A DNA stretch of 64,000 nt, taken from NCBI GenBank assembly GCA_026400835.1, contig JAPLOA010000070.1:62001-126000 (forward strand), read 5' to 3'. This document shows positions 34,992-46,732 of the stretch, one piece after another. Each line of letters starts with the position of its first letter. Positions within the stretch are counted from its first letter, which is position 1. The position numbers were made by a program, and so were the translations under genes. The notes under the pieces were generated by a model, which saw only the letters and a program-made list of their open reading frames with translations, was not told where the DNA came from and searched no databases. The DNA comes from Planctomycetales bacterium. GTDB lineage: Bacteria; Planctomycetota; Planctomycetia; Planctomycetales; Planctomycetaceae.

Positions 34992-35021
34992 GGCGAGCGG
35001 CAGGGCGTCAGCCCTCCGAGT
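34992..35021 (+). repeat. Dispersed REP-like repeat, copy A
   Basis: This 30-base unit has the core GCAGGGCGTCAGCCCT, which can fold as AGGGC-GTCA-GCCCT, flanked by GGCGAGCG and CCGAGT. It is identical over 30 bases to copy C (41837-41866, opposite strand) and close to copies B and D. It lies in the rfbB-rfbA gap. Confidence 0.9.
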
Positions 35022-40118: not shown

Positions 40119-40148
40119 GGCGAGCGGCTGGGCGTCAGCCCTCCGTGT
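40119..40148 (+). repeat. Dispersed REP-like repeat, copy B
   Basis: This is a near copy of unit A with GCTGGGCGTCAGCCCT at its core and a two-base deletion near the right end. It sits between the binding-protein and ATPase genes of the sugar importer. Similarity to copy A seems to run on for about 15 bases (GTGTC-TTCA-TGAT type). Confidence 0.85.
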
Positions 40149-41836: not shown

Positions 41837-41866
41837 ACTCGGAGGGCTGACGCCCTGCCGCTCGCC
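41837..41866 (-). repeat. Dispersed REP-like repeat, copy C
   Basis: This is a minus-strand copy identical over 30 bases to copy A. It lies between the ATPase and permease genes of the sugar importer and is inverted relative to copy B, 1.7 kb upstream. Confidence 0.92.
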
Positions 41867-43492: not shown

Positions 43493-46400
43493 ATGACCAC
43501 AGAACTTCCAAAAGCCTACGAACCAGCCGCCGCACAGACTCGCTGGGTTGAACACTGGCTCAATAAGGGATATTGCAACGCAGAACCCACTCCGGGCAAA
43601 GAGCAGCACACCATCATGATCCCGCTGCCGAACGTGACCGGAGCCCTGCACATGGGGCACTGCCTGAACGGCACCATTCAGGACTTGCTGACTCGCTGGC
43701 GGCGCATGCAGGGGCGAGCCGCTTTGTGGATGCCGGGCACGGACCATGCGGGTATTGCGACTCAGGCGGTCGTTGAACGTCGGATGCTGGAAGAGGAAAA
43801 ACTGACACGCCACGATATCGGTCGTGATGCTCTGGTCGAACGCATCTGGAAGTGGAAAGACGAGTACGAAGCTCGCATTCTGAACCAGCTCAAGCAGATC
43901 GGTTCAAGCTGCGATTGGCGTCGAGTGCGTTTTACGCTGGATGAAGTCTGCAGCAAGGCCGTTCGTCGGACATTCTTCAAGATGTTCAGTGACGGACTGA
44001 TCTACCGTGGTAAGCGATTGGTGAACTGGGACACCTATCTTCAGACGGCCGTCGCGGACGATGAAGTTTATACGGACGACATCGCCGGGCACTTCTGGAC
44101 GATGAATTATCCGGTGGTGGAAAGGCGAGCGGAGGGTGTCAGCCCTCCGAGCAAATCGGCCGTCACTGCGCAGGAACTCGGAGGGCTTACGCCCACCGCT
44201 CGCCTGAATGAAGATTGGATTCTCACTGGCACACGCATTTCGTTTTCAACCACTCGTCCTGAAACGATGCTTGGCGATACCGCTGTTTGCGTTCATCCGA
44301 CGGACGAACGCTACACCGACCTTGTCGGTAAGCATGTGATGATTCCGGCCAATGGCCGAATTATCCCGATCGTTGCTGATGCATTGCTGGCCGACAAGAC
44401 TTTGGGCACTGGTGCAGTGAAGGTAACTCCTGCGCATGATCCCAATGACTATGCCTGCTGGTCTCGCAACAAGGACAAGATGGGTGAGCCGATCAACATC
44501 CTGAGTTCGGATGGTACGATCAATGAAAACGGCGGCGAGTATCAGGGTCTGGATCGTTACGAAGCTCGCAAGCGAGTCGTTGCGAAGATGGATTCGCTGG
44601 GACATCTGGAAAAGGTCGAAGACCGCATTATCCCGATGAAGTACAGCGACCGCAGCAAGACGCCGGTTGAGCCGTTTTTGAGTGATCAGTGGTTCGTGAA
44701 GATGGACACCCTGGCTCAGAACGCGATTGACGCCGTTGAAGATGGCCGAGTCCGATTCTTTCCGCAGCGGTACGCTAAGACATATCTCGACTGGCTGGGT
44801 GAGAAACGAGACTGGTGTATTAGTCGGCAGTTGTGGTGGGGGCATCGGATTCCGGTTTGGACGAGCACGTTCGAGTTGCCTTGGCCTTTGGATGGATCAC
44901 AGAAGCTGGACGCGACTGGTTTGGGGCTTCGTTGGGCTAATTTGCTGCACAAATGGATGAGCTCGAATCAGAAAGAACGATTCGCCACCGCCGAAAGCAT
45001 TGCGGAAAGAATTGCAGTCGTTCCAGTCCAGAGTTCACATGGAGTTCGCCTTCAAATTAGTGTTTCAGAAGATTCTCGCGAGATTGAAGAAGCGTTGGAG
45101 CATGAAGGCTTCACGCAGGACCCCGACGTTCTCGACACATGGTTCAGTTCCGCACTTTGGCCTCACGCCACGCTGGGTTGGCCGGATCGGGAACATAATC
45201 CGCCGATGATACAGGCTGCTGGCGCGACATCTGAGATTTCAAATTTGAAATCTCAAATTGCCTCAGGGACAAACGAAGTCCTCAACTTCTTCTACCCCGG
45301 GTCCGTACTCGTCACCTCCCGCGACATCATTACGTTGTGGGTTGCAAGAATGGTGCTCACGGGGCTCTACAACATGGGCGACGTGCCGTTTAAGCACGTG
45401 TACATTCATCCGAAGATTCTGGATGGTCTTGGCCAGACCATGTCCAAGTCCAAAGGCAACGGCGTTGACCCGCTGGAGTTGATTGAGAAATACGGCACTG
45501 ATGCGATCCGCTTTACGATCTCATCGCTCGCCGGGGAAACTCAGGACGTGCGTTTGCCGGTTGGCTATGAGTGTCCTCATTGCGAAGCCATCACCCCGCA
45601 GACCAAAGAGCATCAGGAAATGCGGCCGATGGGCGGAGCAACACCGTCGCTCAAATGTGCCAAGTGCAAGAGGTCGTTCCAGTTCCCAAGTCCGTGGTTT
45701 ACTCCGGATGATGGAGCGCCGGTCGCTCGTATCGTCAGCGAACGGTTCGAGTATGGACGCAACTTCTGCAACAAGCTGTGGAATGCGTGTCGTTTTGCGT
45801 TCATGAATCTGGAAGGTTACACAGCAGGCCCGGTTAAGGAATCAGACCTGCAGGTGGAAGACCGCTGGGTGCTCAGTCGGCTGGCTACGACGATTCGCGA
45901 AGTCACGACGATGCTGGATCGTTATCAGTTCGATCAGGCGACTCGAGCCGTTCGCGAGTTTACCTGGAATGAATTCTGTGACTGGTATCTTGAAATGCTG
46001 AAGCCTCGCTTCCGTAACGAGGCTGCTCGTCCGGTCGCTCAGCGATGTCTGGTTGTCGTTGTTGACACGCTGCTGCGGCTATTGCATCCGTTTGCTCCAT
46101 TCATCACCGAAGAACTGTGGCACTTGTTTGCTCAGTTCGCTCCGGTGCGACCAACAGGAATTGCCAGCGGTGATAGTGTGTTTGGTGAGTCAGTGCCGGC
46201 TTCGGAAAGCGTCATGGTCGCAAAGTGGCCGGAGATGCCGCTCAAGGCGATTGATGAATCGTTGGAGAAGCGTTTCGAGCGACTCCAGGAAACGATCATC
46301 GCGGTTCGCAACGTGCGATCGGTCTACGGGATATCACCGGGAGCTCCGCTGAAACTCTTCATGCGATGTGCGCCGGACGTTGCGGAGCAATTGAAGGCTG

Positions 46401-46732
46401 TCGCTGGGCAGTTCGACTTTCTCTCGAAGACGATGCTTGAAGCCGCTGGCCTGGATGTGACCGCTCCCGAAGGCTCCGTCAGTTTTTCGCTGCCTGATGC
46501 CGACGGTTATATTCCTGTTGGGGATTCGATCGATCGTGACGCTGTTCGCAAGAACAAGGAAAAGGAAGCTGAAAAGCTGCGAGGTTTCATCGCCAGTGCG
46601 GACAAGAAGCTGCAGAATGAAGGCTTTATGGCGAAAGCTCCGGCTGACGTCGTGGACGGTATTCGAGCCACGAAGGCGGAGCAGGAAGCTCAGTTGGAGA
46701 GCATCGAGCGAATCATTCGGGAGCTGTCATAG
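43493..46732 (+). CDS. valS: Valyl-tRNA synthetase with repeat-derived insertions
   Basis: This 1079-residue class I synthetase charges tRNA-Val. NVTGALHMGHCLNG holds the HIGH motif (53-56), RISFSTTRPETMLGDTAV opens the editing domain, and TMSKSKGNG is the KMSKS loop (649-653). Three extra segments stand out. Residues 211-238 are encoded by an inverted pair of a dispersed repeat. Residues about 577-592 include SEISNLKSQI, encoded by a perfect palindrome. After the KMSKS loop a CPHC-CAKC zinc-ribbon-like block (694-725) interrupts the catalytic-to-anticodon linker. The C-terminal coiled coil is present (KNKEKEAEKLRGFI). Confidence 0.97.
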   Translation: MTTELPKAYEPAAAQTRWVEHWLNKGYCNAEPTPGKEQHTIMIPLPNVTGALHMGHCLNGTIQDLLTRWRRMQGRAALWMPGTDHAGIATQAVVERRMLEEEKLTRHDIGRDALVERIWKWKDEYEARILNQLKQIGSSCDWRRVRFTLDEVCSKAVRRTFFKMFSDGLIYRGKRLVNWDTYLQTAVADDEVYTDDIAGHFWTMNYPVVERRAEGVSPPSKSAVTAQELGGLTPTARLNEDWILTGTRISFSTTRPETMLGDTAVCVHPTDERYTDLVGKHVMIPANGRIIPIVADALLADKTLGTGAVKVTPAHDPNDYACWSRNKDKMGEPINILSSDGTINENGGEYQGLDRYEARKRVVAKMDSLGHLEKVEDRIIPMKYSDRSKTPVEPFLSDQWFVKMDTLAQNAIDAVEDGRVRFFPQRYAKTYLDWLGEKRDWCISRQLWWGHRIPVWTSTFELPWPLDGSQKLDATGLGLRWANLLHKWMSSNQKERFATAESIAERIAVVPVQSSHGVRLQISVSEDSREIEEALEHEGFTQDPDVLDTWFSSALWPHATLGWPDREHNPPMIQAAGATSEISNLKSQIASGTNEVLNFFYPGSVLVTSRDIITLWVARMVLTGLYNMGDVPFKHVYIHPKILDGLGQTMSKSKGNGVDPLELIEKYGTDAIRFTISSLAGETQDVRLPVGYECPHCEAITPQTKEHQEMRPMGGATPSLKCAKCKRSFQFPSPWFTPDDGAPVARIVSERFEYGRNFCNKLWNACRFAFMNLEGYTAGPVKESDLQVEDRWVLSRLATTIREVTTMLDRYQFDQATRAVREFTWNEFCDWYLEMLKPRFRNEAARPVAQRCLVVVVDTLLRLLHPFAPFITEELWHLFAQFAPVRPTGIASGDSVFGESVPASESVMVAKWPEMPLKAIDESLEKRFERLQETIIAVRNVRSVYGISPGAPLKLFMRCAPDVAEQLKAVAGQFDFLSKTMLEAAGLDVTAPEGSVSFSLPDADGYIPVGDSIDRDAVRKNKEKEAEKLRGFIASADKKLQNEGFMAKAPADVVDGIRATKAEQEAQLESIERIIRELS
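44124..44204. repeat. Inverted pair of the dispersed repeat inside valS (copy D)
   Basis: Unit D1 (44124-44151, plus) and unit D2 (44177-44204, minus) are 28-base copies of the dispersed repeat, differing from each other at 3 positions, with a 25-base spacer. The block is 81 bases, exactly 27 codons, so it keeps the frame. It encodes ERRAEGVSPPS, then KSAVTAQELGGLTPTARL. Confidence 0.93.
45233..45254. repeat. Perfect 22-base palindrome inside valS
   Basis: The half-site GAGATTTCAAA is followed by its exact reverse complement. It encodes EISNLKSQ in the valS frame and is unrelated to the GC-rich repeat. Flanking bases (about 45227-45270) look like part of the same insertion, since the usual synthetase sequence runs from the active-site helix straight to the FYPGSVLVT strand. 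Confidence 0.9.

Follow-up and report, generated by a model that had tools for sequence, protein, structure and literature searches.

Our analyses revealed that the valyl-tRNA synthetase (ValRS) gene, valS, in a 64,000-nt stretch of planctomycete DNA (the whole of which is called the window) carries an in-frame, head-to-head dimer of a short REP-like palindromic unit. The unit is dispersed in high copy in the same genome, where it also flanks a Y1 transposase gene. The valS site is empty in the nearest relatives, other relatives have differing inserts there, and REP dimers are present in the paralogous synthetases LeuRS and IleRS as well. The initial annotation had described the valS insert; the larger pattern goes beyond it, as the same turn holds unrelated palindromes elsewhere and the LeuRS and IleRS cases are added to it. 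We consider it likely that REP-like dimers mobilized by the Y1 transposase are tolerated and turned over in a safe-harbor turn of the three paralogous synthetases.

The genome that holds the window (G000) comprises 7.58 Mb in 112 contigs, and the contig of the window is continuous over 147 kb. The host gene of the insert, valS (43493 to 46732, plus strand), is intact, with an ORF of 1,079 aa supported by Pfam, by NCBIfam (1009 bits for valine--tRNA ligase, with a cut-off of 704) and by its match to the Thermus ValRS structure 1GAX. After valS, the next-best ValRS match in G000 is an IleRS (E 1.4e-8). The first unit in valS is a 28-nt arm, GGCGAGCGGAGGGTGTCAGCCCTCCGAG, at 44124 to 44151 on the plus strand, recognized from the sequence and from genome-wide pattern matches. 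It is followed by a 25-nt spacer, which forms the hairpin loop on folding (44152 to 44176), and by a second unit in the opposite orientation, a near reverse complement of the first arm (44177 to 44204, minus strand). The pair spans 81 nt (44124 to 44204), is free of stops and lies in frame within the valS ORF, confirming the 28-base head-to-head arrangement with a 25-base spacer given in the initial annotation. The DNA fold of these 81 nt beat 200/200 dinucleotide shuffles (z −5.9), and the RNA fold likewise beat all 200 (z −6.4).

Two lengths needed adjustment. The 28-nt arms are correct at valS, but the recurring unit is 26 to 27 nt by pattern; and the pair corresponds to 27 codons, but relative to the empty allele the protein gains 29 residues net, the same anchors enclosing 58 residues when the site is filled and 29 when it is empty. 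The stretch without counterpart in empty ValRS alleles covers about residues 211 to 244 (44123 to 44224, plus strand), as judged from alignments and the model described below. In the alignment, the empty form PVVDEAGKPTG stands opposite the window form PVVERRAEGVSPPSKSAVTAQELGGLTPTARLNEDWILTG, and past the pair the filled NEDWIL and the empty EAGKP differ too, so the insertion is not clean. A target-site duplication was sought by eye at the ValRS insert, and none could be named. Shortly 3′ of the insert, at 44249 to 44266 (plus strand), the gene encodes TTRPET, a Thr-rich motif of the CP1 editing domain identified in alignments that included LeuRS and IleRS. A conserved protein feature was rejected as the identity of the inserted stretch, which is missing in most relatives read and in Thermus ValRS, where residues 204 to 208 span the position.

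To place the insert in the protein, we used an AlphaFold2 model of ValRS based on 33 sequences (mean pLDDT 83.9). The model shows strands at residues 192 to 211 and 242 to 253, with the insert as the turn between them at a pLDDT of about 48 to 62. It superimposed on 1GAX with a Z score of 36.0 and a root mean square deviation of 3.4 over 782 residues, and on LeuRS and IleRS chains with Z scores of about 28 to 32. The strand layout and the 1GAX match indicate that the insert lengthens a hairpin turn where the CP1 editing domain begins; as modeled, it is the turn of the first β-hairpin of that domain. The earlier proposal of a tolerated coding insertion in the editing-domain region is supported.

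A second in-frame palindromic repeat, unrelated to the first and translated as SEISNLKSQI, lies farther downstream in valS (45236 to 45259, plus strand), at a position called site 2 in the loop of residues 564 to 600; it was recognized from the alignment, the repeat count and the model, in which this loop is also of low confidence. The SEISNLKSQI repeat has 15 matches in G000 and 145 in the relative G001, with overlapping and tandem matches included, and 0 in the control. REP units, too, occur at site 2, one in G001 and, by position, two in G014. Between the two inserts, valS residues about 461 to 535 (window about 44873 to 45097) are unrelated in G000 and G004, which are 95 to 97% identical on either side, and one version of this loop is common to G004, G017 and G005. 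On sequence grounds, residues 461 to 535 are probably a mosaic produced by recombination.

The CP1 turn is empty in many relatives. A ValRS search of the family gave a match in 152/170 genomes, and same-genus matches mostly break at about query residues 211/245. The loci analyzed were the 30 best together with 20 fetched stretches, mostly broken or long matches; two longer matches, in G141 and G146, lie outside the fetched set. Thirty-five of 159 loci were left out as unreadable, their contigs being cut or their anchors divergent, and the remaining loci partly duplicate one another, so genome counts are given as 66 rows, one per genome with G000 included. In-frame inserts at the ValRS turn are present in 18/66 of these genomes and 48/66 are empty, in a set enriched for broken matches; because mainly broken or long matches were fetched, 18/66 is not a frequency. 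Alignment with related valS genes thus agrees with the initial annotation in that the stretch is missing from 48/66 ValRS on the tree. The nearest relatives, G004 and G015, which are 95 to 99% identical in the matched segments, have no insert.

Where the site is filled, the inserts differ. At the ValRS site, G001 has a REP dimer with a different spacer, G011 has an intact first unit and a decayed second arm, and G014 has one unit on each of two contig ends that meet there; the REP inserts of G000, G001 and G011 begin at the identical base. G017 carries a dimer that belongs to a different family, the G005 insert is built as an inverted array of GCGGAAA-like units, and further inserts were found in G040, G084, G085, G139, G142, G145, G147, G148, G151, G153 and G170, as well as in G023. 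Altogether we distinguished 15 insert types, named by eye, three only of which were traced to a dispersed family of their own genome. Besides the REP, these are the insert unit of G017, with 63 matches in G017, and that of G139, which has a GTAG foot, with 235 matches in G139 and a single one across the genus of the window. Unrelated palindromes occupy one ValRS position across seven genera, and unrelated families land within the same few codons after PVVE/PVVD.

On a flank-only tree of the 66 genomes (307 columns; a quick tree with many open forks), the fewest changes required were 8 for the filled or empty state and 16 for insert type. Five of the six g64-clade members on this tree are filled, with 5 types, and the sisters G084 and G085, only ∼1% apart in the flanks, have wholly different inserts, both of which fold (z −3.2 and −3.5). 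Of the inserts folded, 11/17 had z below −3 against 100 mononucleotide shuffles; those that did not reach this value were L047 (−1.8), L048 (−2.4), L203 (−1.7), L213 (0.1), L214 (−2.3) and L216 (−2.4). The possibility that chance palindromes appear in any variable loop is spoken against by the ValRS 461 to 535 loop, used as a control, in which 0/7 readings had z below −3 (dinucleotide shuffles; the anchors matched in 7/30 loci).

Several further features of these loci were observed. Across repeat types and genera, many filled ValRS copies show a Trp (as DW, GW or NW) that stands a few residues ahead of the return strand, near valS residues about 240 to 247; the empty copies shown lack it. Many LeuRS loops contain a Trp too. 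A long charged insert occupies the same ValRS turn in L141, from a record named Planctomycetaceae bacterium (Lab288P3bin146). The ValRS of CAMAVB010000003.1 (L112), a record titled Candidatus Kuenenia stuttgartiensis, is 80% identical to that of the window, and the record is probably a mislabeled bin.

The REP-like unit itself consists of a GGCGAG foot and the hairpin CGG(N)NNNGY-GTNA-RCNNNCCG, with GTNA as the loop. The pattern GGCGAGCGGN{0,4}GYGTNARCN{2,8}CG gave 114 matches in G000 (59 + 55) and 0 in the reversed control; the GGCGAG foot and the outer hairpin letters are built into this pattern and are not independent findings of the search, and the window units, read directly, have the foot GGCGAG. 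The core motif with up to 3 mismatches was found 6 times in the window versus 1.58 expected. Copies are present at the three positions named in the initial annotation, in intergenic DNA at 34992 to 35021 (plus strand) and 41837 to 41866 (minus strand), and upstream of an ABC transporter gene at 40119 to 40148 (plus strand), each identified by sequence match. The variable stem positions covary: among 41 distinct units, 135/164 cells are paired, compared to a shuffled mean of 116.5, and 0/2000 shuffles reach 135.

The 99 of the 114 units that lie in the fetched parts of G000 fall into 65 places, of which 38 are single units, 21 simple convergent pairs, 4 mixed, 1 divergent and 1 tandem. The valS pair has the same arrangement as the 21 simple convergent pairs. 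Units are mainly intergenic, with 13/65 places inside ORFs under a looser rule (frame open on both sides) and 9/65 under a strict one. The genome-wide excess accords with the dispersed family envisaged in the initial annotation. The proposal that this family spreads in the lineage also stands, but its reach is wider than the genus: matches were found in 75/170 genomes of the family and in 31/58 genera, from single matches per genome up to 618 (G148), with at least 10 in 32 genomes and 0 to 5 in the reversed control.

The in-frame units of G000 lie in housekeeping genes that include valS, leuS, ileS, a metH-like gene and others. In the MetH-like methionine synthase (L013; G000 C36:41366-41456), an in-frame REP pair is located between two B12-binding domains, and a 1,832-aa ORF with ceramidase-like, DUF7133 and cytochrome c domains (L249:2900-8395; G000 C77) has three in-frame REP groups. 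We considered and rejected the idea that the units are built to be stop-free, as 219/276 unit frames (79%) are open versus 78% of random window 27-mers and 90% of shuffled units. The unit is read in varied frames and orientations, as RRAEGVSPPS in ValRS, SASGRASALRD in LeuRS and SEGSRPAARL in IleRS, indicating that no single peptide is what is kept.

Class I synthetases hold 4 of the 13 coding places in G000, one in ValRS, two in LeuRS and one in IleRS. These 4/65 places in three synthetase genes compare with 0.084 expected (Poisson P 2e-6, for a gene set chosen post hoc and with phylogeny ignored). The second LeuRS place, site B, reads GAEVDFKIA-insert-IRVYTTRPDT and has a REP dimer in G000, G001 and G004, and IleRS site I reads VFVRFPI-insert-EYLLVWTTTPW and has a REP dimer in G001 and G014; in G000 itself, site I of IleRS is empty. 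The REP units at both sites were confirmed at the DNA level, and both sites match the position of the ValRS insert. Profile alignments placed the strand 3′ of the insert, with its Thr-rich motif, in register across ValRS, LeuRS and IleRS, and Thermus LeuRS spans the position at about residues 234 to 237, as Thermus ValRS does by residues 204 to 208.

Some genomes have the same kind of insert in more than one of these enzymes. G001 has REP units in ValRS, LeuRS and IleRS alike; translations show a KAES-type insert in each of the three enzymes of G005, where the LeuRS loop folds weakly (z −1.9), and a GEGQG-type insert in ValRS and LeuRS of G023. At LeuRS site B, 26/30 loci were matched, including G014 with a blank read-out, and 4/24 loops of at least 15 residues had z below −3 against dinucleotide shuffles. 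The low number reflects the native loop of ∼29 residues found at this site in many planctomycete LeuRS, and thus the LeuRS case depends on few genomes. At IleRS site I, 27/30 loci were read, of which 15 are short and empty, and 6/12 long loops had z below −3, again with dinucleotide shuffles. The uncut IleRS frames of G000 (C65:12020-15766; L284) and its relatives range from about 1230 to 1447 aa in the genus and contain several repeat-bearing loops.

G000 contains 19 Y1_Tnp matches, one of which (C27:146255-146806) has units on both sides, the upstream unit having one degenerate arm. The product of this ORF, of 184 aa, scored 33.4 bits against Pfam Y1_Tnp PF01797 (cut-off 23) and contains NHIH, WWT and Y...Q; H.H, WWT and Y...Q are each conserved in 80% or more of the 30 homologs aligned. 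In the same alignment the Y---NP motif of class 2 RAYTs is absent, with Y...Q in its place, and the flanked transposase did not reach the NCBIfam cut-offs for IS200 or for RAYT (NF047646, 26.3 bits versus 80). The initial annotation had pointed to RAYT transposases; what the genome encodes between copies of the unit is a Y1 transposase of the RAYT superfamily, but not a canonical RAYT.

Similar to the gene in G000, transposase homologs in G015, G001, G005 and G014 are flanked by units on both sides; exact units were found at 10/30 homolog loci, and 20/30 loci have none. A strong homolog (at least 120 bits) is present in 20/32 genomes with at least 10 units versus 13/138 others (Fisher test, p 8e-10, with thresholds set post hoc and phylogeny ignored). 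Thus 13 genomes have a strong homolog yet fewer than 10 units, and in the unit-rich genomes G004 (75 units) and G140 (338 units) no transposase match was found at E 0.001. At L087:1-1062, an ORF that by eye resembles an IS4-type transposase lies upstream of the Y1 transposase. The flanked gene and its homologs suggest that the insert was probably moved by the Y1 transposase of the same genome.

The explanation that we favor can be set out as follows. The insert is a head-to-head pair of REP-like palindromic units with a GGCGAG foot and a GTNA-loop hairpin, and a Y1/HUH transposase, encoded between copies of the unit, would have moved it as single-stranded DNA. Judging from the flanked gene and the enzymology of the superfamily, hairpin-recognizing single-strand Y1 transposition may scatter both units and dimers. 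Gene-breaking insertions would be lost, and in-frame ones in tolerant turns would persist. The CP1 surface turn of ValRS appears able to take some 20 to 45 extra residues, and the homologous turns of LeuRS and IleRS, along with some other loops, would also accept inserts. In each lineage, whichever palindromic element is active may accumulate in frame and later decay, be lost or be replaced, replacement presumably operating alongside independent insertion. The CP1 turn may recur as a site since it is exposed and extendable and, once lengthened, may accept replacement. Neutral tolerance is our default reading of the insert. Filled and empty alleles could also have been moved between species by recombination, as the mosaic look of residues 461 to 535 suggests.

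We also weighed readings in which more than tolerance is at work. The CP1 turn of ValRS, LeuRS and IleRS in Planctomycetaceae might be a privileged site at which coding hairpins are re-acquired, their form kept and their sequence exchanged between sisters, so that the hairpin, as mRNA or peptide, tunes synthesis or proofreading; we regard this as unlikely. Selection keeping a hairpin that is useful at the entry to the editing domain, by ribosome slowing or a change in proofreading, with any palindrome sufficing, seems to us quite unlikely. It would explain why sequences are replaced while the hairpin form returns, and it draws on the different but folding inserts of G084 and G085, on the variety of types in the g64 clade and on the position common to three paralogs. 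However, recurring hairpins need no selection because the elements are palindromic by origin, most genomes in the tree are empty at the site, 6/17 inserts fold poorly, and the differing frames and orientations in which the unit is read leave no one peptide to be selected. A hot spot of insertion chemistry, in which several transposases favor the DNA sequence or structure of the CP1 turn beyond what is tolerated there, is very unlikely in our judgment. The landing of several unrelated families within the same few codons and the common start base of the REP inserts in G000, G001 and G011 would fit it, but the target DNA is unlike between ValRS, LeuRS and IleRS, a single inherited insertion could account for the common start in g1, and no target duplication was seen by eye.

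The differing inserts might instead descend from one ancient insertion per clade that diverged very fast by slippage and hairpin correction, with no repeated arrivals. The Trp before the return strand in many filled copies of differing type is in keeping with this, as are the inserts of G005, G084, G085, G148 and G151, which on inspection by eye resemble short units arrayed in inverted order. The inserts of G017 and G139, however, match abundant repeat families of their own genomes, which argues that those sequences came from elsewhere, and we consider a single ancient origin distinctly unlikely. That the insert is an artefact, either a chance palindrome in a variable native loop or a misassembly, is barely conceivable: some draft contigs of relatives do break at the site (for example, G014 C184 and C142), but the contig of the window is continuous, the unit has 114 copies versus 0 in the control, the same element sits at the ValRS site in other genomes and the control loop lacks hairpins. 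Tolerated and turned-over insertion of Y1-mobilized dimers is thus the reading that we retain. It offers a natural replicated experiment in which mobile palindromes become protein at one position of three essential homologous enzymes, with useful contrasts in the empty sisters at 95 to 99% identity and in sister species with different inserts. It allows two questions to be put to a direct test: is it through neutral tolerance or through selection that REP-type elements shape protein loops, and does proofreading depend on the length and structure of the region where the editing domain begins?

The window units share with REP/BIME elements a short palindromic unit of 20 to 40 nt in high copy, pairs in opposite orientation and a mainly intergenic location; the GTAG (GT[AG]G) or CGTC foot of those elements is not present in the window units, the foot being GGCGAG. 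As in a REPtron, the transposase gene is bordered by REP units of its own family, on both sides in G000. PMC6006769 places TnpA_Y1 class 3 mainly in Planctomycetes, Acidobacteria and Proteobacteria, with a length of about 178 aa, HuH, W[TA] and Y-Q motifs (printed as NHVH, W[TA] and YV[VI][AENY]EQ) and flanking hairpins that are sometimes high-copy, with the printed foot CnGA. Compared with the printed motif, NHIH and WWT of the flanked transposase fit this class, but its Q lies four residues after the Y versus five; compared with the printed text, the foot is GGCGAG on the chosen strand versus CnGA, and on the opposite strand CGGA lies at the stem base. Class 2 RAYTs, whose TnpA_REP motif is given there as Y---NP, likewise have a Y1_Tnp domain with a HuH motif, but differ from the flanked transposase, which has Y...Q and falls below the NF047646 cut-off. 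The same paper describes subclass 2.4 tnpA_REP genes with REPs inserted in frame, in a variable region at the periphery of the protein; those inserts are in the transposase itself, whereas the ones described here are in essential synthetases. In the literature searched, which was covered in part, we found no description of a planctomycete REP/Y1-transposase pair whose units have a GGCGAG foot, and none of palindromic inserts in planctomycete synthetases or of a site shared by paralogs.

In-frame palindromes in coding sequence are themselves already known. Rickettsia palindromic elements (RPEs) are described in PMC3733652 as palindromes in frame in housekeeping genes, and by this description the window element is like them; it differs from them in its paired short units, its identifiable flanked transposase and its occurrence in planctomycetes. 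PMC3733652 also reports that REP units or dimers in frame inside ORFs encode 20 to 30 residues, that in-frame REPs also occur in tRNA synthetases of X. oryzae, E. litoralis and S. alaskensis, and that recB of two Xanthomonas has a REP at about the same site, whereas, apart from recB, genes that share a functional category carry their REPs at different sites. The intragenic GTAG/CGTC REPs described there resemble ours as in-frame units and dimers in ORFs, tRNA synthetases included. In contrast to those elements, the inserts described here have a GGCGAG foot at the window units and occur at one ValRS position across seven genera and at the matching position of LeuRS and IleRS; that a single structural position is used again and again in three paralogs was not found described in the literature searched.
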